From contig CALXMV010000009.1 in assembly GCA_944389565.1 (NCBI GenBank), positions 1 through 64,000 on the forward strand: 64,000 bases of DNA, read 5' to 3'. Within the stretch, counting starts at the first letter, position 1. The number at the start of each line of letters is the position of its first letter. The DNA comes from an uncultured Kiritimatiellota bacterium (GTDB taxonomy: Bacteria > Verrucomicrobiota > Kiritimatiellia > RFP12 > DVOR01). The translations under genes and the position numbers were made by a program. Under the pieces are notes generated by a model that made no database searches, was not told the DNA's origin, and saw only the letters and a list, made by a program, of their open reading frames with translations. Below, piece by piece: positions 1,895-36,249 of this stretch.

Positions 1895-2815
1895 TCAGGG
1901 CCAGAGCGTGGCGGGATACTCGCCGGCGGCGACCATCTTCTTGATGGCCTCGACCACGACGGGTTTGTCCTCGCGGTAGGTGACGCCGAACCACGTGCTG
2001 TCGGTGGGGAGGACGTCGACGGTGGCCTGTCCCTCCTTGACGAGTTCGTCGACATAGAAGGGGATGTACCATTCGGCCTTGAGCTGGCCCTCGTGCTGAT
2101 GGAACCAGGTGGCGAAGCGTTCTTCCATGCCGTCGAAGAGCGCGGGGGTGAACCCCCAGAGGTTGAGGGAGACGCGGCAATCGCCCCGCAGGGGGACGGG
2201 GTTGGCGGGGTCTTCCTCGTTTTGGATGGCGCCGTCGGGCTTGCGCGCGATCTTGGTCATTTCGGTGACGCCGAGGAGGCGGCCTTGGGGCGTGACCTCG
2301 CAGATGCCACGGGCGACGGAGCCGTTGTCGGAGAGGGTCTGGTCGAGGCGGTAGCCGACCATGGCGAACTGTTTGGGGGTGGCGGCGACGTCGACCTTGG
2401 AGAGGAAGTCCGCGAGGCGGCGGAAGGCATCGGCGCCGTAGAAATCGTCGGCGTTGATGGCGGCGAAGGGGGCGTCGATGACGGAGCGTGCGGAGCGGAT
2501 CGCGTGCGCGGTGCCCCAGGGCTTTTCACGCCCTTCGGGGAATGCGCACCCGGGCGGCAGGTCAAGCGGGTCTTGGAAGGCCAGCTCGATCTTGATCTTG
2601 CCTTCGTATTTGGCGACGATTTTTTCGCGGAAAGCCTCCTCGAAGTCGTGCCGAATGATGAAGACGACCTTGTCGAAGCCCGCTCGGATGGCGTCATAGA
2701 TGGAATAATCCATGATGGTCTCGCCGGAGGGGCCGACGGAGTCGATCTGCTTGAGCCCGCCGTATCGGCTGCCCATGCCGGCGGCCAGGATGAGAAGTGT
2801 CGGTTTCTTGTTCAT
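1895..2815 (-). CDS. Sugar-phosphate nucleotidyltransferase family protein
   Basis: 306 aa. The N-terminus shows the nucleotidyltransferase signature (LLILAAGMGSRYGGLKQ, about residues 7-23), followed by residues GPSGETIMDYS and a metal-site region INADDFYG near residue 122. This fold joins a sugar 1-phosphate to an NTP to give an NDP-sugar. The start ATG has GAGGAA upstream and a near-consensus promoter at 2845-2873. Galactokinase and a phosphohexomutase lie 5-8 kb away, and the neighbouring gene is a GlcNAc-releasing GH84 enzyme, so a role in handling galactose or amino-sugar phosphates is plausible. No galT or galE is visible here. The substrate is not deducible. Confidence 0.75.
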   Translation of the reverse strand: MNKKPTLLILAAGMGSRYGGLKQIDSVGPSGETIMDYSIYDAIRAGFDKVVFIIRHDFEEAFREKIVAKYEGKIKIELAFQDPLDLPPGCAFPEGREKPWGTAHAIRSARSVIDAPFAAINADDFYGADAFRRLADFLSKVDVAATPKQFAMVGYRLDQTLSDNGSVARGICEVTPQGRLLGVTEMTKIARKPDGAIQNEEDPANPVPLRGDCRVSLNLWGFTPALFDGMEERFATWFHQHEGQLKAEWYIPFYVDELVKEGQATVDVLPTDSTWFGVTYREDKPVVVEAIKKMVAAGEYPATLWP

Positions 2816-2844
2816 GTCGTTCCTCGGATGATTGAAACACCGTT

Positions 2845-2873
2845 AGTATAGCGCACCGCGCACGCGGTGTCAA
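2845..2873 (-). promoter_or_regulatory. Promoter of the nucleotidyltransferase gene
   Basis: Minus strand TTGACA (2868-2873), 17-bp spacer, TATACT (2845-2850). This is the closest match to the sigma-70 consensus in the window. The predicted transcript start is about 23 nt before the ATG. Confidence 0.8.
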
Positions 2874-2951
2874 AGCGGTTGTCGCGGGGTGCGGCTGTCG
2901 TGGGCGGGACGATCCTGTCGTGCGCCGTTTTTTGCTTGCGCCGCGCGGAAA

Positions 2952-2962
2952 TGTGTTATACT
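2952..2962 (+). promoter_or_regulatory. Extended -10 promoter of the GH84 operon
   Basis: TGTGT precedes TATACT (2957-2962). TTGC-type -35 candidates lie upstream at non-ideal spacing (15 or 19 bp). The leader would be about 27 nt and carries an AAAGG ribosome-binding site. Confidence 0.5.
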
Positions 2963-2995
2963 TGCGCCATCGATCAAACAAGAAAGGCCGAAGAG

Positions 2996-5407
2996 ATGAA
3001 GACGATCCTCTGTGCAGTGATGGCGGCGTGTTGCGTGGTGACGCTGCGCGCCGATGAGCTTCCGGCTCCGATGCGCGTCTGGCCGACGCCGCAGGAGGTG
3101 TCGCTGAAGGGCGGGGATTTCCCGACCCCGGCGGAAATCGCGGTGGCCCCCGCGGAGGGGTTTGACGCCGCGGCGCGGGAGGCGTTGGCCAAGCGTTTCC
3201 GGTTGGCGAAGGAGGCGCCCTTCACGCTGACGTGGAAGGTCGAGGCCAAACTCCCCGCCGAGGGGTACACGCTGACGTTGGGCGAGAGCGGCGCGACGTT
3301 GGCGGCCTCGGATGACCGCGGGTTCTTTTATGGGGCGCAGACGCTGCGCCAGCTCCTGGCGGGTGACCGCTACACGGGCGTGACGATCAAGGATTGGCCG
3401 GATGTCGCCTTCCGTGGGACGGTCGAGGGGTTCTACGGCCTGCCGTGGAGCTTCGAGTCGCGCGTGAGCCAGTTCCGCTTCTATGGCGAGGTGAAGCTGA
3501 ACACGTACATCTATGGGCCGAAGGACGATCCCTTCCATGGGTTCTCGAACCGTTGGCGCGACCCATACCCCGCGGAGAAGGCCAAGGAAATCGCCGCGTT
3601 GGTGAAGGAGGCGCAGGCGAACAAGGTCAATTTCGTCTGGGCCGTCCATCCCGGGCGTGACATCCATTGGAAGGATGACAGCGACATCAAGGCGTGCATC
3701 AAGAAGTTCGAGATGATGTACGATCTGGGCGTGCGGTCCTTCGCGGTCTTTTTCGACGACATCGGCGGTGAGGGCGCGCGCGCCGAGAAGCAGGTCGAGC
3801 TGCTCAATGCCGTGAACCGCGAGTTCGTGCGCAAGAAAGGCGACGTTACGCCGCTCATCATGTGCCCCACCGATTACAACGCCTCGTGGGCGGGGCCGCG
3901 CTACCTGCCCACCCTCGGCAAAGGGCTCGACCCGGACATTCGCGTGATGTGGACGGGCGACTCGGTCTGCTGCCCCATCACCAAGGGCACGGTGGAGACC
4001 TTCAAGAAGCGGGTGGGGCGCAAGCCTTTCATTTGGTGGAACTGGCCCGTGAACGATTATTGCAAGAGCCGCCTGTTGCTCGGCCGTTGCTACGGCAACG
4101 ACCCTTCCAACGGGCCGGATTACTCCGGGTTCGTCTCCAATCCGATGGATAAGCCCGAGGCCTCGAAGATCGCCCTTTTCGGCGTGGCCGCCTATGCGTG
4201 GAACCCGGACGACTTCGACTCGAATCTGGCGTGGCAGGACGGCATCCGCCGTCTCTTCCCGCACGTCGCCGGGGCCGTGCAGGTCCTCGCCAACCACAAC
4301 TCCGCGCCCGCGGGGCATGGGTTCACCCGTGAGGAATCCGTCGCCACCGCGTCCGTCGCCAAGCGCGTCACCCAGGCGCTCGACGCCGGGAAGGCCCCGG
4401 CCAAGGAGGATGTCGACGCCATGACCGCCGAACTCGCGAAGGTGCGCCAGTCCGGGCAGGACATCGTGGAGAAGTGCAAGAACCCGCTCTTCATGAACGA
4501 GATCCGCGATTGGGCGTATCTCTTCGGGCGTCTGGGCGAGGTGGGCGTGACGCTGAACGCCGCGCTGGAGGGGAACGGCGCGGCCGAGGACGCGCTCGCC
4601 GCTCTCCTGGCCTATCGTGCCGAGCAGGCCGCGCTCTCCAAGCTCAACGGGCAGAAGCCCTTCCAGCAGGGGGCCGCCATCGAGGTCGGCAGCCAGGTGC
4701 TCACGCCCTACGTCAATCGCATCGGCGCCGCCCTCTACGACCGCCTTTGGCGGGAGACCGCCGGCAAGCCCGCGCCCAAGGGCGAGGCCAAGCTCTATGA
4801 GTTCATCACCAATGTCGAGGCGTTGAAGAACCTGCGCGTCTCGCGCAAGGGGCAATTCGTGCAGTTGCCGCGCATCATGGAGCCCAAGACCCTCGCCCCC
4901 GGCGACTGGATCGGCATCCGCCTTCCCGCCGGCGTCACCGCCACGTGGGTGCATTTCATCCTCGAATCCGCCGACGCGCCTAAGCAGGGACGCATCCAGG
5001 TCTCCACCGATGGTGGGAAAACGTGGTCCGAACGCGCCACCGTCGTCCGCGGGAATGGCCAGGAGGGCGAGATGGAGATCCGCCACATCAACGCGAAGGA
5101 CGGCATCGACGCCGCGCGCTACATCAACGTCTCCGACAAGCCTGTCACCATCACGCTCCGCCAGTTCAAGGTCGATGTGCCGAAGGATGCCCAGGCGAAC
5201 GTCCCCGCCGCGATGACCGACGGCGTGCTTGACAACGGTTACACCCTGGCGCCCGGCCAGAGCGTCCGCGTCGCCCTTGCCGCGCCCGTCACCGAGAAGA
5301 ACACCAAGGTGCTCGCCTCCGGGAAGGTCTCGGTGACGCTTGAGGCCGATGGCGTCACGCTCACCGCCGGCGACAAGCCGGTCATCGTCCACGAGATCAT
5401 CCACTGA
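2996..5407 (+). CDS. Exported GH84 beta-N-acetylglucosaminidase
   Basis: 803 aa from the ATG at 2996. This start is preferred over upstream in-frame codons because it has AAAGG upstream and begins a clear signal peptide (MKTILCAVMAACCVVTLRA). Residues about 25-135 form the GH20b-like N-terminal domain. The GH84 barrel follows, with GFYGLPWS at 145-152 and the paired catalytic aspartates D254-D255 in FFDDIGG, the hallmark of substrate-assisted GH84 hydrolases. The C-terminal 300 aa is helical and then beta-rich, as in related gut enzymes. It should release terminal beta-GlcNAc outside the cytoplasm. It is the first gene of an apparent operon with a DUF362 protein and a polyferredoxin, an unusual partnership. 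Confidence 0.88.
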   Translation: MKTILCAVMAACCVVTLRADELPAPMRVWPTPQEVSLKGGDFPTPAEIAVAPAEGFDAAAREALAKRFRLAKEAPFTLTWKVEAKLPAEGYTLTLGESGATLAASDDRGFFYGAQTLRQLLAGDRYTGVTIKDWPDVAFRGTVEGFYGLPWSFESRVSQFRFYGEVKLNTYIYGPKDDPFHGFSNRWRDPYPAEKAKEIAALVKEAQANKVNFVWAVHPGRDIHWKDDSDIKACIKKFEMMYDLGVRSFAVFFDDIGGEGARAEKQVELLNAVNREFVRKKGDVTPLIMCPTDYNASWAGPRYLPTLGKGLDPDIRVMWTGDSVCCPITKGTVETFKKRVGRKPFIWWNWPVNDYCKSRLLLGRCYGNDPSNGPDYSGFVSNPMDKPEASKIALFGVAAYAWNPDDFDSNLAWQDGIRRLFPHVAGAVQVLANHNSAPAGHGFTREESVATASVAKRVTQALDAGKAPAKEDVDAMTAELAKVRQSGQDIVEKCKNPLFMNEIRDWAYLFGRLGEVGVTLNAALEGNGAAEDALAALLAYRAEQAALSKLNGQKPFQQGAAIEVGSQVLTPYVNRIGAALYDRLWRETAGKPAPKGEAKLYEFITNVEALKNLRVSRKGQFVQLPRIMEPKTLAPGDWIGIRLPAGVTATWVHFILESADAPKQGRIQVSTDGGKTWSERATVVRGNGQEGEMEIRHINAKDGIDAARYINVSDKPVTITLRQFKVDVPKDAQANVPAAMTDGVLDNGYTLAPGQSVRVALAAPVTEKNTKVLASGKVSVTLEADGVTLTAGDKPVIVHEIIH

Positions 5408-5427
5408 CATTCCGGGGGCGCGAGGCC

Positions 5428-6327
5428 ATGAATCGGAGGGACTTCCTGAAGGGCGGCGCGGCTTTGGCCGCGCTCGCGCCCGCCGCCGGCACGCTCGCGG
5501 ACGCGCCGCCCGCCGGCAAAAGCAAGGTCGTCGTCGTGCGCAACGGCGAGCCAGCCGCGCTCTTCCAGCGGGGCATCGTGGCGCTTGGCGGGATGACGGC
5601 TTTCGTCAAGCCGGGGCAGAAGGTGGTCGTCAAGCCGAACATCGGGTGGGACCTCCCGCCCGAGCGCGGCGCCAACACCGACCCTGGCCTGGTGGCCGAG
5701 ATCGTCCGCCAATGCATTGCCGCCGGCGCGGCGCAGGTGGAGGTCTTCGACCACACGTGCAATGCGTGGGCGCCGTGTTACCGCAACTCCGGCATCCAGG
5801 AGGCCGTCGAGAAGGCCGGCGGGAAGATGGTGCGCGCCGATCGCGAGGAGGATTACCGCGAGGTCACGCGCCCGCAGGCGCTCAGCATGAAAAAGGCGGC
5901 GATCCATCGCGCCATCCTGGATGCGGACGTCTTCATCAACGTCCCCATCCTGAAGAACCACGGCGGCGCCAAGATGACCGCGTGCCTCAAGAACTTCATG
6001 GGGCTGGTCTGGGATCGCCAGTTCATGCACCGGCACAATCTCACGCAATGCATCGCCGACGCCGCGCTTTACCGAAAGCCCGACCTGAATGTCGTCGACG
6101 CGTATCGCGTCATGCAGACGAATGGCCCGCGCGGCGTTTCCGTGAACGACATCCGCACGTTGCGCTACCAGATCCTCTCCACCGACCCCGTCGCCGCGGA
6201 CGCGCTCGCCACCAAACTGTTGCGTTTCCCGCTCGACAGCGTGCCCTACATCCATCTCGCGGCCTCCAAGCATGGCCTCGGCACCGATGAGGACGCGCGG
6301 ATGGAAATCGTGCGCTTGGAGGCGTGA
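5428..6327 (+). CDS. DUF362 domain protein with Tat signal
   Basis: 299 aa. The N-terminus MNRRDFLKGGAALAALAP is a twin-arginine signal (RRDFL motif), implying export of a folded, probably cofactor- or metal-bearing protein. The rest matches the DUF362 family: VVVKPNIGWD near residue 73, NVPILKNHGG near residue 172 and the NFMGLVWDRQ segment. DUF362 has no settled activity but often sits beside or is fused to 4Fe-4S ferredoxins. Here it lies 20 nt after the GH84 gene and overlaps the next gene, a membrane polyferredoxin, by GTGA. An envelope redox complex is the reasonable inference. Confidence 0.8.
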   Translation: MNRRDFLKGGAALAALAPAAGTLADAPPAGKSKVVVVRNGEPAALFQRGIVALGGMTAFVKPGQKVVVKPNIGWDLPPERGANTDPGLVAEIVRQCIAAGAAQVEVFDHTCNAWAPCYRNSGIQEAVEKAGGKMVRADREEDYREVTRPQALSMKKAAIHRAILDADVFINVPILKNHGGAKMTACLKNFMGLVWDRQFMHRHNLTQCIADAALYRKPDLNVVDAYRVMQTNGPRGVSVNDIRTLRYQILSTDPVAADALATKLLRFPLDSVPYIHLAASKHGLGTDEDARMEIVRLEA

Positions 6328-7787
6328 GGATGGGCAGGTCGCGCGTGTGGCGCGTCCTTAGGGGCGTTCGCGTGGCGCTGGCCGTGATCGCCTTCGCGGC
6401 CACGACGCTCGCGTTCGGATATGCCGCAGACCTCATGGGGTTGCTTGGGCAATGGTGGATGGGGGCGCCGTTGCCCGAGGAGACGCGCTTTCTGGCCGGC
6501 ATCGCCAAAGGGAATCTGGGGCCCACGCTCATGGCGGCGGCCGCACGCACGTCGTGGGCCGCCCTTGTCGCGGCGGCCGCCATCCTGGCGCTCACGGCGC
6601 TCCTCGGGCGTGCCTATTGCGCCATCGTCTGCCCGCTCGGCATTCTGCAGGATCTTGTCGGCGCGCTTGCCTTCTGGCGCAAAAACGCGCCTCGCCCGCG
6701 GCTGTTCGCTTTGCGCAAGGGGCTTGGCGTCGCCGTCTGGGGTGTCGCGCTTGTCGGTGGCTGGACGGTGGGGCTGCGTTTTCTCGACCCGTTCACCGTC
6801 TACGGCGCCATCGCCGCCGGGGGATGGTTGCCCCTGCTCCTCATCGTGGCGCTCACGGTGTGGCGGCGGCGTGTCTTCTGCAACAGTCTCTGCCCCGTCG
6901 GCGCGTTGCTTGCCTGCGAATCCGCGATGGCGCCCTTGGGGTTGCGCTTCACGGATGCCTGCGTGAAGTGCGGCAAGTGCGTGCAGGTCTGCCCGGTCGG
7001 TTGCCTGGACCCCAAGACGGCGACGCTTGACAACGGCCGTTGCGTCCGTTGCCTGGATTGTGCCGCGGTATGCCCCGTCGGGGCGATCACGTATGGCCGC
7101 AACAAGGGTTTCCGTCTGCCAGGGCGCCGGGAGGCGCTGCGTGCCGGCGCGCTCGTCGCCGGCGGCGTGGCGTTGGGTGGCGCGGCGCGTGTCGCCAAAC
7201 CGCTTTATCCGGCCTATGGGCCGCGTGCCGCCATCGCCAAGGAGGGCATCTACCCTCCGGGTGCGGGGTCGCGCCAACGGTTCCTCACCAAATGCACCGA
7301 TTGCCGGCTGTGCGTCACCCAATGCGTCGGCAAGGTGCTTCAGCCGGCCGGGACCTTCGGGGCGGTCCATCTCGATTTCGATGCCGGGATGTGCGAGTTC
7401 TATTGCAATCGCTGTGTCGAGGTCTGCCCGACAGGTGCCCTTCTGCCGCTGGATTTGGCGGCCAAGCAACGGACGCGCCTTGGCATCGCCGCCATTGATC
7501 TGGGCATCTGCGTCGCCGGGGTCGAAGGGTACGAATGCGGCGCTTGCGCCGAGCATTGCCCGACCGGCGCTTTGCGGATGAAGGAGGATGCCGAGGGAAT
7601 CCGCGTCCCGACGCTTGACGCGCGACTCTGCATCGGGTGTGGGAGCTGCGAGCATCCATGCCCCACGCGCCCGATCAAGGCCGTCCGCGTCTGGCCCGTG
7701 GATGTCCAGACGTTGGCCGCCGACCCCGCCGACGTTTTCAGGCCGACCGCGCCGACCCCGACCGTCTCCGACGATTGGCTGATCTGA
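6324..7787 (+). CDS. NapH/NapG-like membrane polyferredoxin
   Basis: 487 aa. The GTG at 6324 overlaps the DUF362 stop (GTGA); an ATG at 6330 is an alternative. The first 200 residues hold about five membrane segments with two NapH-type cysteine motifs (CAIVCPLG near 94, CNSLCPVG near 192). Two 4Fe-4S motifs follow (CVKCGKCVQVCP and CVRCLDCAAVCP), then a second hydrophobic segment of signal-anchor type and four more cysteine clusters, including CTDCRLCVTQC, CGACAEHCP and CIGCGSCEHPCP. The layout equals NapH fused to NapG, which pass electrons from quinol to periplasmic acceptors. No nitrate reductase is present. The presumed partner is the DUF362 protein. Confidence 0.85.
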   Translation: MRMGRSRVWRVLRGVRVALAVIAFAATTLAFGYAADLMGLLGQWWMGAPLPEETRFLAGIAKGNLGPTLMAAAARTSWAALVAAAAILALTALLGRAYCAIVCPLGILQDLVGALAFWRKNAPRPRLFALRKGLGVAVWGVALVGGWTVGLRFLDPFTVYGAIAAGGWLPLLLIVALTVWRRRVFCNSLCPVGALLACESAMAPLGLRFTDACVKCGKCVQVCPVGCLDPKTATLDNGRCVRCLDCAAVCPVGAITYGRNKGFRLPGRREALRAGALVAGGVALGGAARVAKPLYPAYGPRAAIAKEGIYPPGAGSRQRFLTKCTDCRLCVTQCVGKVLQPAGTFGAVHLDFDAGMCEFYCNRCVEVCPTGALLPLDLAAKQRTRLGIAAIDLGICVAGVEGYECGACAEHCPTGALRMKEDAEGIRVPTLDARLCIGCGSCEHPCPTRPIKAVRVWPVDVQTLAADPADVFRPTAPTPTVSDDWLI

Positions 7788-31058: not shown

Positions 31059-31083
31059 GCCCTCCCCCCTCGCACAGCCGGGA

Positions 31084-31171
31084 GGGTCCGACCCGAAACC
31101 CTAAAGGGTCCGACCCGAAACCCTAAAGGGTTCGGCCCGAAAGTCGGGAGGGTTTGGGGCGAAACGCCCGC
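31084..31171 (+). repeat. 22-bp tandem repeat array, locus A (4 units)
   Basis: Four 22-bp units start with GGGT at 31084, 31106, 31128 and 31150. The first two are identical (GGGTCCGACCCGAAA then CCCTAAA); the others are diverged. Each joint makes the palindrome ACCCTAAAGGGT, or a related form. The array lies between the divergent moxR and Type ISP genes, just before the extended -10 at 31180. The same unit occurs at loci B (43861-43952) and C (56139-56226). Not coding: 22 bp breaks any reading frame and no ORF is supported here. Confidence 0.85.
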
Positions 31172-31176
31172 GTTTT

Positions 31177-31185
31177 TGCTATCAT
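31177..31185 (+). promoter_or_regulatory. Extended -10 promoter before the folded RNA
   Basis: TTTTTGC then TATCAT (31180-31185). The same TTTGC-TATCAT core forms the tRNA-Lys promoter in this window. No good -35. Predicted start near 31192. Confidence 0.5.
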
Positions 31186-31191
31186 GGTGGC

Positions 31192-31380
31192 ACGCGATGG
31201 GCAAGCCATCGCAATCGTTGCGCTTTGCGCGAACAAGTTGCTTACCGAAAATTAGGACCTTTCGAGTGCTGAGCAACGTGTCGGGCGAGGTGCGCCGTCT
31301 CGGCGCACTTCCTTTTCACGTATTCAGCACGGGCCGTCCTAAGCCTTCGGTAAGTACGTGGATTGGAAGTGCGTTTTCTT
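31192..31380 (+). ncRNA. Candidate structured RNA, 6S-like rod or long leader
   Basis: After a perfect 7-bp hairpin (31194-31212), positions 31241-31354 fold into one long interrupted rod. Its helices are 31241-31249 with 31346-31354 (CTTACCGAA/TTCGGTAAG), 31252-31258 with 31336-31342, 31266-31272 with 31324-31330, 31276-31280 with 31317-31321, and 31290-31297 with 31301-31308. That is 36 pairs, with a 9/8-nt bubble below the apical stem. The size (about 185 nt) and rod-with-bubble form recall 6S RNA, but no conserved sequence proves it. It could instead be a regulatory leader of the Type ISP gene, which starts 40 nt later. The apical stem followed by TTCCTTTT could also act as a terminator. 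Confidence 0.5.
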
Positions 31381-31419
31381 GTGCCGGCCGGCCGAGGGGG
31401 CGCGGGAAAGGACCGAGCG

Positions 31420-34400
31420 ATGGACATGACGTTGGACGAGGTGTTGGCGCGTTTCCGCGAAGAGGCGCAAGGGGACAAAACCGCGCTGGGGACGCGGTTC
31501 GAACGTCTGGTCAAGGCGTTGCTCACGCGTCTGCCGCTCTATCAGGGGCGTTTCCGCCGCGTCTGGCTCTGGTCGGAGCTCGATCTCGGCCATGACACAG
31601 GCATCGATCTGGTGGCGGAGGATCACGAGGGCGCGCTCTACGGCATCCAGGCCAAGTGCTACGAGGATGGGCACGTCGTCTCCAAGCCCGACATCGACAC
31701 CTTTTTGGCGCGGCTCGGCGCCTTCATCCCCTTCGCGGGCGCTTCGCGCGCCTTCGCCCATGGCCTTCTCTTCGCCACCACCGACGCCTTCGGCCCCCAC
31801 GCCGAGGAGACACTCGCCGCGCGCCACATCCCCGTGCAGGTGATGACCCTCACGCGTCTGCGGGACCTCGACGCCAACTGGGCCGCCCTCGCGGGCTACG
31901 CCGAGGGGCCCGCCGTGGCGCCCAAGGCCCTGCGCGACTACCAGCGCGAGGCACTCGCCGCCGCCGCCGCGCACTACGCCGCCCACGACCGCGGCAAGCT
32001 CATCATGGCCTGCGGCACGGGCAAGACCTTCACCTCCCTGCGGCTCATCGAGCAGGAGACCGGCGGCAAGGGTCTCGTCCTCTTCCTCGTCCCCTCCATC
32101 GCGCTCCTCAACCAGACCCTCGTGGCGTGGTGCGACGACGCGCAGGGCCCCATCCACGCCGTCTGCGTTTGCTCCGACATCCAGGCCAACCAACGCGCCA
32201 GGCGCGACGACGACGCCCCCGCCGAGGATCCGAACGCCCTCGCCCTGCCCCCCACCACCGACCCCGACCGCCTCGCCAAGCGCATCCGCTACCACCGCGA
32301 ACGCCACCCCGACGCCCTCACCGTCGTCTTCTCCACCTACCAATCCATCGCCGTCGTCGAGGAGGCCCAGCGCCGCCTCGGCCGCGACGCCTACGCCTTC
32401 GACTTCGCCGTCTGCGATGAGGCCCACCGCACCACCGGCGCCATCGCCAAGGAAGAGAAGGAACCTGCCTTCACCTACATCCACGACGACGCCCACGTCC
32501 TCGCCCGCAAGCGCCTCTACATGACCGCCACCCCGCGCCTCTACGCCGAAACCGCCAAAAAGAAGGCCGCCGAGCGCTCCATCGAGCTCTGCTCCATGGA
32601 CGACGCCGCGCTCTACGGCGACACCTTCTACCGCATCGGCTTCGGCGCCGCCGTCGCCAAAGGATGCCTTGCCGACTACAAGGTCCTCGTCCTCACCCTG
32701 CCCGAGGGGGCACTCCCCGAGGGCGACTCCCCCTACGACCGGCTCACCGACGCCGAGCGCAAGACCCTGACCGGCGCCAACGACGACGGCCGCACCACCG
32801 CCGTCAAGCTCCTCGGTTGCATCAACGCGCTGGCCAAGCGCCTCGCGGATTCCCCCCTCGTCACCCAGGCCGACCGCGCCCCCGCCCGCCGCGCCGTCGC
32901 CTTCTGCCGCACCATCGCCGTCTCCAAGGCCACCACCGCCCTCTTCCGCAAGTTCGCCGAGGACCCGCGCTTCGGCGCCCCCCTGCGCGTCGAGGCCCGG
33001 CACGTGGACGGCGAGATGGGCGCACTGGCGCGCAACGACGCCCTCGCCTGGCTCAAGGCTCCCGCCGGCGACGGCGCCTGCCACCTCCTCACCAACGTCC
33101 GCTGCCTCTCCGAAGGCGTCGACGTCCCCTCCCTCGACGCCGTCCTCTTCCTCTCCAAGCGCAACTCCCAGATCGACGTCGTCCAATCCGTCGGCCGCGT
33201 CATGCGCGTCGCCCCCGGCAAGCGCTACGGCTACATCGTCATCCCCGTCGTCATCCCCGCCGGCGAGGACCCCAAGGCCGAGCTCGACAACTCCGACACC
33301 TTCGGCGTCGTCTGGACCGTCCTCAACGCCTTGCGCGCCCACGACGACCGCTTCGAGGCCACCATCAACAAACTCCGCTTCGACAAGCCCCTGCCCGCGA
33401 CGGTCGCCCCCACCGCCCCCATCGACGGCGCCGAGCCCCCCGCCATCACCCTCTCCAGCGGCCTGGCCGCCGGCGACCCCGCCGCCCTCCCCCTCCCCAT
33501 CCAAGACACCTTCGACCTCCGCTTCCCCGAGAAGATGGAGCAATACCGCGACCTCCTCTACGGCCGCATCGTCAAAAACTGCGGCGACCGCAGATACTTC
33601 GAGCGCTGGGCCGCCGACGTCGCCGCGATCGCCAAACGCATGGCCGAGACCCTCCGCGCCCGCTGCGACGCCGACCCCAAGGCCGCCGACACCTTCCGCC
33701 GTTTCCACGCCCTCCTCCAGACCGCCGTCTACGCCGCCGTCTCCGAGGAGGACGCCCGCCTCATGCTCGTCCAGCAGCGCCTCACCGGCCCCATCTTCGA
33801 CGCCCTCTTCGGCGAAAGCGGCTTCACCGCCCACAACCCTGTCTCCCAGGCCCTCGACCACGCCGCCGACCTCCTCAACGCCCTCAACACCGACGCCGAC
33901 CGAAAGACCCTCGCCCGCTTCTACGAGGATGTCCGCACCCGCGTCGGCGATATCCAGAGCGCCGACGGCAAGCTCGAGATCATCCGCACCCTCTACGACA
34001 CCTTCTTCGCCGCCGCCTTCAAGACCACCGTCGAGAAACTCGGCATCGTCTTCACCCCCATCGAGGTCGTCGACTTCATCCTCCGCTCCGCCGACGGCGC
34101 CCTCCGAAAATACTTCAACCAACGCCTCACCGACAAAGGCGTCCACATCCTCGACCCCTTCACCGGCACCGGCACCTTCATCGCGCGCCTCCTCCAGAAG
34201 GACCTCGCCCTCATCCGCGACGACGACCTCTACCGCAAATACGCCCACGAGCTCCACGCCAACGAGATCGTCCTCCTCTCCTACTACATCGCCGCCATCA
34301 ACATCGAGAACGTCTTCCACGACCGCGCCGCCCGCAAGGAAAAATACGCCCCCTTCCCCGGCATCGTCCTCGGCGACACCTTCCGAATGCGCCAGGTCAA

Positions 34401-36249
34401 GCCCGGCGACCTCCTCGACGATGCCGGCTTCACCGAAAACTCCCAGCGCATCCTCGCCCAAAACAACGCCCCCATCTCCGTCATCGTCGGCAATCCGCCA
34501 TACTCCATCGGGGCGAAGAGCGACACCGCCAACCGTACAACAGCAAACGAAGCGTATCCGTATCTTAATGAGCGCATAGCGCAAACATACGCGGGTGAGA
34601 GCGCGACTTCATCCAGTTTGCGCGCTGTTTATGATGCATACATCAAGGCTTTTCGGTGGTCGTCCGACCTGATTGAGAACGAACGCGGAGGCGTCCTCTG
34701 TTTCGTCACCAACGGCGGGTGGCTTGACTCCAACGCCGGTGCCGGCTTCCGCCGATGCATCGTCCGTGAGTTCGACGAGATCTACTGCTACAACCTGCGC
34801 GGGAACCAACTGACCCAAGGCGAGACCTCCCGCCGGGAGGGTGGGAAAATCTTCGACTCCGGGTGCCGTTGTCCTATCACCATCCTTTGCCTCGTCCGCC
34901 TTCCTGCCGATCGCCACCGCGGCAACGCCACCATCCACTACCGTGACATCGGCGACTACCTCTCCCGCGAGGAGAAACTCCACACCATCGACCTCTGCAA
35001 CTCCTTCGTCAATCCCACCTGGTTGGAGACCGCCACCGTCATCACCCCCAACGATCACGGCGACTGGATCAACCAGCGCAACGACGCCTTCGCCGCACTC
35101 CACCCCTTAGCGCCCGAGAAGAAGTTCGACGAGCAGGCGCACGCCATCTTTGTTACCTATTCATTGGGGTTGACCACAAATCGTGATCCGTGGTGCTACA
35201 GTTTTTCTAACGCTCAGTTGGCTGAGCAAATGCGGAGGACAACGTGTGCCTACCTCGCCCAATTGGAACAAGGTACTCGCGAAGACGATGAAACTGCCAT
35301 CCATTGGACTCGTGCGTTACGTGGTCATTTTGAGAAGGGCCAACGCCCTCCAGAGGCGAACAGGTGGCAGACTTCCATTCGGCTTGTTACCTATCGTCCT
35401 TTTCAGAGACAGTTTGGCTTCATGAATCGCTTCTGGAATGAAGATGTGCGTCTTCTTCCCTCTCTCTTCCCGACGGGCGAGCGGGGGGAGAATGTGGTGA
35501 TTTGCACAGGAGGATTGGGGAGTACGAAGTCGCGGACTTGCCTTATCACGGATGTCACGCCAGACCTCAACATGATGGACGCGGGCACGCAGTGTTTCCC
35601 ATTGTATTGGTATGAAGAGAAGGATGTTGACCTCTTCGGGAAGAAGACGTTGGTGCGGCATGATGGGGTGAGCGACTGGGTACAGCGGTTGGCGGAGCGG
35701 CAATATCGGGCGACCGTGGGGAAGGAGGAGATCTTCTATTATGTCTATGGGTTCCTCCATCAGCCGGCGTATCGGGAGGCCTTCGCGGCGGATCTGAAGA
35801 AGTCGTTGCCGCGAATCCCTTTGGTGGAGCGGTATGAGGACTTCAAGGCGACCGCCGACATCGGGCGGAAACTGGCGGCGCTCCACCTGAACTATGAGAC
35901 GCTCGACCCGTACCCGCTGGAGGAGGTCGGGGACTTCGCGGACACGCGGGTCGTGAAGATGAGGTTCGGCGGGAAGGACCGGTCGCAGATCGTGGTGAAC
36001 GGGTCGCTGACGCTGGCGGGCATCCCGCCCGAGGCCTACGACTACGTGGTGAACGGGCGCAGCCCGCTGGAGTGGGCGGTGGATCGTTACCAGGTGCGGC
36101 AGGACAAGGCGAGCGGCATCGTGAACGACCCGAACCTGTGGGCGCCGGAGGCCCCGCGCCACATCCCCGACCTGCTCAGGCGCCTAGTGACGCTCGCGCT
36201 CCGGACGCGGGCGCTCGTGCGCGCCCTCCCCGCCTGGCGGGCGGAGTGA
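31420..36249 (+). CDS. Type ISP restriction-modification enzyme (single chain)
   Basis: 1609 aa from the ATG at 31420 (AAAGGA upstream). Domains in order, as in LlaGI/LlaBIII: Mrr-like nuclease (GIDLVA with D63, then QAK 77-79); SF2 helicase with Walker A ACGTGKT 197-203, DEAH 333-336, MTATPR 368-373 and QSVGRVMR 589-596; a helical coupler about 690-870; an adenine methyltransferase with DPFTGTG 912-918 and NPPYS 1025-1029; and a target-recognition domain from about 1180 to the end. It should methylate one strand of an asymmetric site and, on unmodified DNA, translocate and cleave. All key motifs are intact. Base composition falls sharply at about 34500-34660 and 35140-35640, that is, just after NPPY and inside the recognition domain, unlike the very GC-rich remainder. 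Confidence 0.92.
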   Translation: MDMTLDEVLARFREEAQGDKTALGTRFERLVKALLTRLPLYQGRFRRVWLWSELDLGHDTGIDLVAEDHEGALYGIQAKCYEDGHVVSKPDIDTFLARLGAFIPFAGASRAFAHGLLFATTDAFGPHAEETLAARHIPVQVMTLTRLRDLDANWAALAGYAEGPAVAPKALRDYQREALAAAAAHYAAHDRGKLIMACGTGKTFTSLRLIEQETGGKGLVLFLVPSIALLNQTLVAWCDDAQGPIHAVCVCSDIQANQRARRDDDAPAEDPNALALPPTTDPDRLAKRIRYHRERHPDALTVVFSTYQSIAVVEEAQRRLGRDAYAFDFAVCDEAHRTTGAIAKEEKEPAFTYIHDDAHVLARKRLYMTATPRLYAETAKKKAAERSIELCSMDDAALYGDTFYRIGFGAAVAKGCLADYKVLVLTLPEGALPEGDSPYDRLTDAERKTLTGANDDGRTTAVKLLGCINALAKRLADSPLVTQADRAPARRAVAFCRTIAVSKATTALFRKFAEDPRFGAPLRVEARHVDGEMGALARNDALAWLKAPAGDGACHLLTNVRCLSEGVDVPSLDAVLFLSKRNSQIDVVQSVGRVMRVAPGKRYGYIVIPVVIPAGEDPKAELDNSDTFGVVWTVLNALRAHDDRFEATINKLRFDKPLPATVAPTAPIDGAEPPAITLSSGLAAGDPAALPLPIQDTFDLRFPEKMEQYRDLLYGRIVKNCGDRRYFERWAADVAAIAKRMAETLRARCDADPKAADTFRRFHALLQTAVYAAVSEEDARLMLVQQRLTGPIFDALFGESGFTAHNPVSQALDHAADLLNALNTDADRKTLARFYEDVRTRVGDIQSADGKLEIIRTLYDTFFAAAFKTTVEKLGIVFTPIEVVDFILRSADGALRKYFNQRLTDKGVHILDPFTGTGTFIARLLQKDLALIRDDDLYRKYAHELHANEIVLLSYYIAAINIENVFHDRAARKEKYAPFPGIVLGDTFRMRQVKPGDLLDDAGFTENSQRILAQNNAPISVIVGNPPYSIGAKSDTANRTTANEAYPYLNERIAQTYAGESATSSSLRAVYDAYIKAFRWSSDLIENERGGVLCFVTNGGWLDSNAGAGFRRCIVREFDEIYCYNLRGNQLTQGETSRREGGKIFDSGCRCPITILCLVRLPADRHRGNATIHYRDIGDYLSREEKLHTIDLCNSFVNPTWLETATVITPNDHGDWINQRNDAFAALHPLAPEKKFDEQAHAIFVTYSLGLTTNRDPWCYSFSNAQLAEQMRRTTCAYLAQLEQGTREDDETAIHWTRALRGHFEKGQRPPEANRWQTSIRLVTYRPFQRQFGFMNRFWNEDVRLLPSLFPTGERGENVVICTGGLGSTKSRTCLITDVTPDLNMMDAGTQCFPLYWYEEKDVDLFGKKTLVRHDGVSDWVQRLAERQYRATVGKEEIFYYVYGFLHQPAYREAFAADLKKSLPRIPLVERYEDFKATADIGRKLAALHLNYETLDPYPLEEVGDFADTRVVKMRFGGKDRSQIVVNGSLTLAGIPPEAYDYVVNGRSPLEWAVDRYQVRQDKASGIVNDPNLWAPEAPRHIPDLLRRLVTLALRTRALVRALPAWRAE

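Follow-up and report, generated by a model that had tools for sequence, protein, structure and literature searches.

A multi-copy leader RNA with two mutually exclusive predicted folds precedes restriction–modification and surface genes in Kiritimatiellota

What kind of RNA might be encoded directly ahead of a Type ISP restriction–modification gene, at positions 31192–31380 (+) of the 64-kb stretch of DNA analysed here (the window)? The initial annotation of this locus described a long rod-shaped RNA and offered two readings, a 6S-like RNA or a regulatory leader whose delay of the restriction enzyme would protect the host. Comparing the locus with its relatives, we consider it probable that the element acts in cis as a transcription attenuator with two states, that is, as a riboswitch-like leader, of a family that is absent from Rfam 15. 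The window derives from the genome, 95% complete, of an uncultured gut Kiritimatiellota-type bacterium, and the genomes used for comparison are draft MAGs.

The window copy is strongly structured. Its predicted minimum free energy on the + strand measured –87.9 kcal/mol, against –63 ± 4.5 kcal/mol for 200 dinucleotide shuffles, none of which was as stable (z –5.56). The reverse strand is likewise palindromic (z –5.0), so that the strand had to be decided by comparison. The nested helices of the initial annotation (31241–31354, 36 pairs) are indeed present, with about 37 pairs altogether. The 5′ strand of the rod (31242–31272) consists of S1 (31242–31249), S2 (31252–31258) and S3 (31266–31272), and the 3′ strand (31324–31353) of S3′ (31324–31330), S2′ (31336–31342) and S1′ (31346–31353). 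The three stems are separated by two conserved internal loops, a 2×3 AA/GCC loop between S1 and S2 and a TTTC/GGGC region between S2 and S3, with GAAA and TTTC as the conserved letters of the 5′ strand and GGGC and GCC as those of the 3′ strand. The rod is capped by the hairpin hA (31287–31311; arms GAGGTGCGCC at 31287–31296 and GGCGCACTTC at 31302–31311), and the fold of the window copy includes an inner 5-bp stem (31276–31280/31317–31321). Ahead of the rod lie a perfect leader hairpin, H1 (31194–31200/31206–31212, GNGAG-type loop), which had also been annotated correctly, and a second hairpin, H2 (31218–31232; TTGCGC-TTT-GCGCGA). We refer to the rod with its hA cap as state A.

Two features had been overlooked, the multi-copy nature of the element and an alternative pairing. 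Positions 31302–31322, on the side of the hA 3′ arm, are also complementary to 31355–31373, directly before the T-run TTTTCTT (31374–31380). This inverted repeat (I7) has the anatomy of an intrinsic terminator (31302–31373) with a stem of about 19 bp and a long loop, about 32 nt in the window copy, that is formed by the rod 3′ strand. In the 5′ half, H2 and the adjoining element a (GTTGC, 31237–31241) can pair with a′ (GCAAC, 31273–31277) and the hA 5′ arm, H2 then pairing with the hA 5′ arm instead of with itself. Together, this 5′ hairpin and the terminator constitute state B. As the two states share strands, the hA 3′ arm being common to rod and terminator, they cannot coexist.

The element recurs throughout the genome and beyond it. 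The window holds a single copy, and a DNA search of the genome returned 11 matches, ten of them full-length and all ten with the same order of parts: TTTTTGCTATnAT, H1, H2, rod, 3′ tail, T-run and start codon. A covariance model built on these ten (R1) found 21 copies in this genome and further copies in 46 of 59 relatives, with a maximum of 31 per genome in the genus. A second model, built on 91 diverse members (R2), placed the family in 125 of 162 genomes of the order and in 95 of 388 genomes sampled across the phylum, the other classes having fewer copies each. Model scores reach 100–200 bits in the genus and 40–70 bits outside the class; judged from these bit scores there is little doubt about the family membership of the matches, though the E-values are rough. 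Exact matches to one motif were carried by uncultured Kiritimatiellaeota and 'Lentisphaeraceae' genomes. One truncated copy (L018/L039, 24453–24530 on another contig of the genome set) retains only the promoter, H1, H2 and the beginning of the rod before a short CTTTTT end, and is a decayed or shortened form. Carriage by phages or plasmids was considered and set aside: the window copy had no match in phages or plasmids, and two core patterns found none in viral contigs, both being sequence searches that are blind to diverged copies. A viral-classed IMG/VR contig encodes a 44% identical Type ISP enzyme (2001–6896) without the RNA leader.

Covariation supports both folds. Across 91 distinct genus copies, 97.2% of cells in state A are paired (98.5% for hA) and 45 of 48 pairs show double changes, with a covariation score of 0.632 compared with 0.227 for shuffled and at most 0.124 for slid alignments. 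The same fold holds in 30 further members, all from other classes and left out of model building (92.7% paired, double changes in 47 of 48 pairs, score 0.776 versus 0.202). Compensatory changes in relatives, the check proposed in the initial annotation, are thus abundant. H1 is paired in 99.6% of cells within the genus and 5 of its 6 pairs carry double changes, while its sequence is not recognisable in other classes. The alignment was fitted without state B, and the model alignments are by construction biased to state A; in state B, the terminator is paired in 88.5% of cells in the 91 distinct copies (at most 66% when slid) with double changes in 17 of 19 pairs, and the 5′ hairpin in 89.9% with double changes in 14 of 21. 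In the 5′ hairpin, a and a′ appear as GTCGC/GCGAC or GTTGT/ACAAC; other copies have CTCGTAT/ATACGAG or a near-perfect terminator helix of about 20 bp. A terminator helix of at least 8 bp can be formed in all 72 non-redundant copies (median 19), and the T-run is kept in the copies read.

Because paralogous copies inflate such cell counts, slide controls were complemented by a swap test, in which the arms of the 72 non-redundant copies were compared with arms swapped between copies. The copy's own arms ranked in the best 5% for the rod in 71 of 72 copies, for the terminator in 35 and for the 5′ hairpin in 23, and two control pairings of the same relatedness had no effect. A pairing of H2 with the Shine-Dalgarno tail, proposed by RNAalifold, also gave no swap effect and was rejected.

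The unpaired letters behave differently from the stems. Whereas the stems take all pair types, the loop letters GAAA, TTT, GGG and CCTC are kept from the genus to other classes. This suggests an aptamer-like conserved unpaired core of the sort that riboswitches need. Given that the internal-loop letters are conserved while the stems vary, the rod would be the part that is read by a ligand or protein, and its two internal loops the putative binding site of a signal, be it a small molecule or a protein.

How would such an RNA be transcribed? A promoter-like sequence, TTTTTGCTATCAT (31173–31185, +), is conserved upstream of the genus copies and includes the extended –10 element TGCTATCAT (31177–31185), from which a transcription start at about 31191–31192 is predicted. 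The argument for a promoter here is one of conservation, because a generic terminator and promoter scan (sigma-70) makes no call at the element. In 70 of 72 genus copies the 22 nt upstream contain TAnnnT, and in 36 of 72 TGnTAnnY occurs upstream, compared with 0 of 72 in a control stretch. Of the promoter in the initial annotation, the extended –10 is retained; a –35 is lacking. Just upstream, a 22-nt tandem repeat, AGGGTCCGACCCGAAACCCTAA, occupies 31083–31126, and similar repeats lie upstream of one further locus (L013/L022) on another contig.

At the downstream end, the T-run is followed by AAAGGA (31407–31412) and by the codon at which the Type ISP gene probably begins (31420–31422), in line with Type ISP homologues, which start 36–40 nt past the T-run; in-frame alternatives are GTG at 31381 and ATG at 31426. 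The gene (31420–36249, +) encodes Type_ISP_C (Pfam, 6.9e-99), ISP_coupler, Mrr_cat_2 and ResIII domains, and judged from its sequence the product is a genuine Type ISP enzyme. Every full copy that was examined in this genome has a gene right behind it. Across the copies, a co-oriented gene begins 0–140 nt past the T-run: most start codons in the genus fall within 2 nt of the match end on either side (–2 to +2), and the distance from the match end is 36–40 nt for Type ISP genes and up to about 140 nt for PEP-CTERM proteins. A few distant matches are without a clear downstream open reading frame.

The genes behind the leader fall into marked classes. Among 113 downstream proteins there are 18 with a PEP-CTERM motif, 11 ResIII, 10 EcoRI-type methylase, 9 Mrr_cat_2, 8 acyltransferase 3, 7 GtrA, 4 glycosyltransferase group 1, 4 FrhB and 3 HsdM matches, and PADLOC is in agreement on the methylases and restriction enzymes. 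In an approximate background of 60 other window open reading frames, some of them antisense, none of these was among the 25 families listed, with 71 further families lying beyond that list. Outside the class the downstream genes are more mixed and include SNF2 helicases, Type ISP enzymes, a PLD/helicase protein and lipoproteins. PEP-CTERM proteins, the commonest genes behind the RNA, are the usual substrates of exosortase, and an exosortase (EpsH) gene lies within the window. The suggestion of a regulatory leader before a restriction enzyme is strongly supported by these homologous copies, which precede other restriction–modification genes and many genes besides. Since the same leader also stands before surface-sugar and PEP-CTERM genes, its general purpose cannot lie in protecting the host.

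The RNA behaves as an independent unit in these comparisons. RNA pairs that are 85–94% identical may have upstream flanks of only about 50–60% identity and unrelated downstream genes. L184 and L186, two RNAs of 94% identity, come from separate families within the phylum and precede different genes; their sequences part right after the T-run, a pattern suggestive of the RNA being transferred as one piece. Taken together, these comparisons point to an RNA under its own selection that has been copied between genes. Two identical tandem RNAs 3.5 kb apart (L114 and L115) precede GtrA-like genes that diverge after about 120 nt, which looks like gene replacement behind the leader. Two copies at contig ends (L010 and L011) have nearly the same glycosyltransferase gene behind them and differ in their rod stems, possibly through recent duplication followed by stem divergence.

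The predicted energies place both states far below chance. Summed over halves in the 72 copies, the states average –80.6 and –81.3 kcal/mol, about 27 kcal/mol below shuffled sequences cut alike (–53 and –54.7 kcal/mol). On average the states differ by 0.7 ± 5.8 kcal/mol, and they lie within 5 kcal/mol of each other in 45 of 72 copies, where nearest-neighbour energies carry errors of several kcal/mol. When folding was followed in the growing transcript, the 5′ hairpin formed first (70/72), hA next and then the rod (72/72 once S1′ was out). At full length the predicted minimum is the rod in 65 copies and the terminator in 7, and the predicted equilibrium probability of the terminator in the window copy is about 2%. 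The default at equilibrium is thus predicted to be readthrough. With the rod as the predicted ground state, the RNA would terminate only if it were kinetically trapped in the first hairpin or acted on by a factor.

From these models we propose the following mechanism. The polymerase would start at about 31192 and make H1, followed by the 5′ hairpin of H2 and a with a′ and the hA 5′ arm. The choice between the two states would fall while the 3′ half is emerging. In state A, hA would close and the S1–S2–S3 rod zip up, removing the 5′ strand of the terminator, so that transcription enters the gene. If instead the 5′ hairpin held (state B), the freed hA 3′ arm would pair with 31355–31373, stopping the polymerase at the T-run and leaving an RNA of about 190 nt. 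The rod would thus correspond to gene on and the terminator to gene off. On this model, termination would truly occur and the state would be regulated. In copies whose start codon touches the T-run, state B is predicted to bury the Shine-Dalgarno sequence as well; that of the window gene stays free because its start lies further downstream. A switch that mainly hides the ribosome site would therefore hold only where start codon and T-run adjoin. With 36–140 nt separating the starts of Type ISP and PEP-CTERM genes from the T-run, termination is left as the common feature.

Other explanations deserve consideration, and the near-balance of the two predicted energies bears on one of them directly. 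Without any ligand, balanced folding could leave the outcome to chance in each cell and produce mosaic expression of restriction–modification and surface genes, a form of RNA-based phase variation. These gene classes are often phase-varied in gut bacteria. Terminator-based stochastic expression of a pilus exists, by a different route (PMC3894217). The strict conservation of the internal loops across the phylum is more typical of a binding site, however, and the balance itself lies within the error of the energy model, so that we regard a purely stochastic switch as unlikely. A small RNA that acts in trans and stands on its own, 6S-like or otherwise, and to which the downstream gene is incidental, would account for the predicted promoter, discrete product of about 190 nt and terminator, and for near-identical copies before unrelated genes. 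It sits poorly with 20–30 copies per genome that nearly all have a co-oriented gene at or just past the T-run, with the strong bias in gene class, with the conservation of a second fold in which the terminator is dismantled and with the missing 6S match; we hold this reading to be improbable.

Processive antitermination, through a specialised NusG protein (RfaH, UpxY or LoaP type) or a factor-recruiting RNA of the EAR type, also serves polysaccharide operons. EPS genes have wcaG and epsC/EAR leaders ahead of them (PMC2864571). Here, by contrast, the state B terminator is local and alternative to the rod, this genome encodes a single NusG-domain protein, and the scanned library, which includes EAR (epsC, RF01735), gave no match to it, making this explanation very improbable. 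The geometry of terminator and antiterminator would suit a leader-peptide attenuator coupled to the ribosome, yet we found no conserved combination of start codon, ribosome site and short open reading frame (the best column reached 9 of 72 copies), and such a mechanism is hardly credible. Equally hard to sustain is a repetitive DNA element (MITE-, REP- or integron attC-like) whose inverted repeats merely resemble RNA. Its multi-copy, palindromic, near-identical units ahead of unrelated genes, with equally unrelated upstream flanks, would be expected of such DNA, but a young transposon would have identical stems; in this family the stems differ with pairing kept, the loop letters are conserved on one strand, and promoter and terminator lie in the sense of the gene. 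An attC-like recombination site was also discarded for lack of constant end motifs. A boxA/boxB (nut-like) reading of H1 and H2 was dropped, since covariation takes H2 to unrelated sequences, TACGC-TAA-GCGTA among them.

The two-state attenuator remains the reading that we favour. Beyond it, the elements could form an undescribed, phylum-wide class of switches, one regulon of restriction–modification/defence and surface genes in which one signal or balanced folding picks the phage-facing genes that are read; on the present comparisons, this wider proposal could equally well hold or fail. If true, the family would rank among the larger structured cis-regulatory RNAs that Rfam lacks, in a phylum for which little RNA biology has been described, and a single RNA control would tie defence genes to surface genes. 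The element is compact, is predicted to terminate transcription and comes in many natural variants with compensatory changes, which would make what it senses directly open to experiment.

Comparing the element with known RNAs, we found no described counterpart: gathering scans with Rfam 15 of the window and 20 diverse members returned only tRNAs, and we found no paper describing such an RNA. The resemblance to 6S RNA (RF00013) in the initial annotation lies in the length of about 190 nt and the rod with a bubble. However, 6S RNA is a stand-alone gene, usually present in one or two copies per genome, as opposed to the 21 gene-linked copies with a predicted terminator end found here. RF00013 matched neither at the site nor elsewhere in the genome, whereas it detected 6S RNA in control genomes, and we therefore reject the 6S reading.

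GEMM (c-di-GMP) riboswitches in Geobacter occur in tens of copies per genome before surface and exopolysaccharide genes. The present family shares this placement in many copies, but lacks an Rfam match, and no GGDEF protein was found in the 17 genus genomes examined (controls were positive), which disfavours c-di-GMP as the trigger. EAR/epsC and wcaG leaders are 5′ UTR RNAs of exopolysaccharide genes, and EAR is reported to antiterminate (PMC2864571). They differ in architecture and taxa and give no Rfam match here, and the present family serves restriction–modification and PEP-CTERM genes too. In the S. gallolyticus pil1 locus, a leader terminator likewise sets the expression of a surface structure, driven by a leader peptide of variable repeat length (PMC3894217), in contrast to the family described here, which has no conserved leader peptide.

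The closest likeness is to transcription-terminating riboswitches and attenuators in general, in which terminator and antiterminator share a strand, a conserved internal-loop core lies in the 5′ UTR, and several unrelated genes per genome are served. Sequence predictions for the present element include a terminator stem with a T-run, a conserved exclusive fold and a co-oriented downstream gene, as in that class. It departs from attenuators in general in that both halves rearrange, two long-loop hairpins being exchanged for one rod, and in having no Rfam match. The kind of element, a riboswitch-like attenuator, is thus known, whereas the family, the double rearrangement and the set of genes behind it appear to be new.
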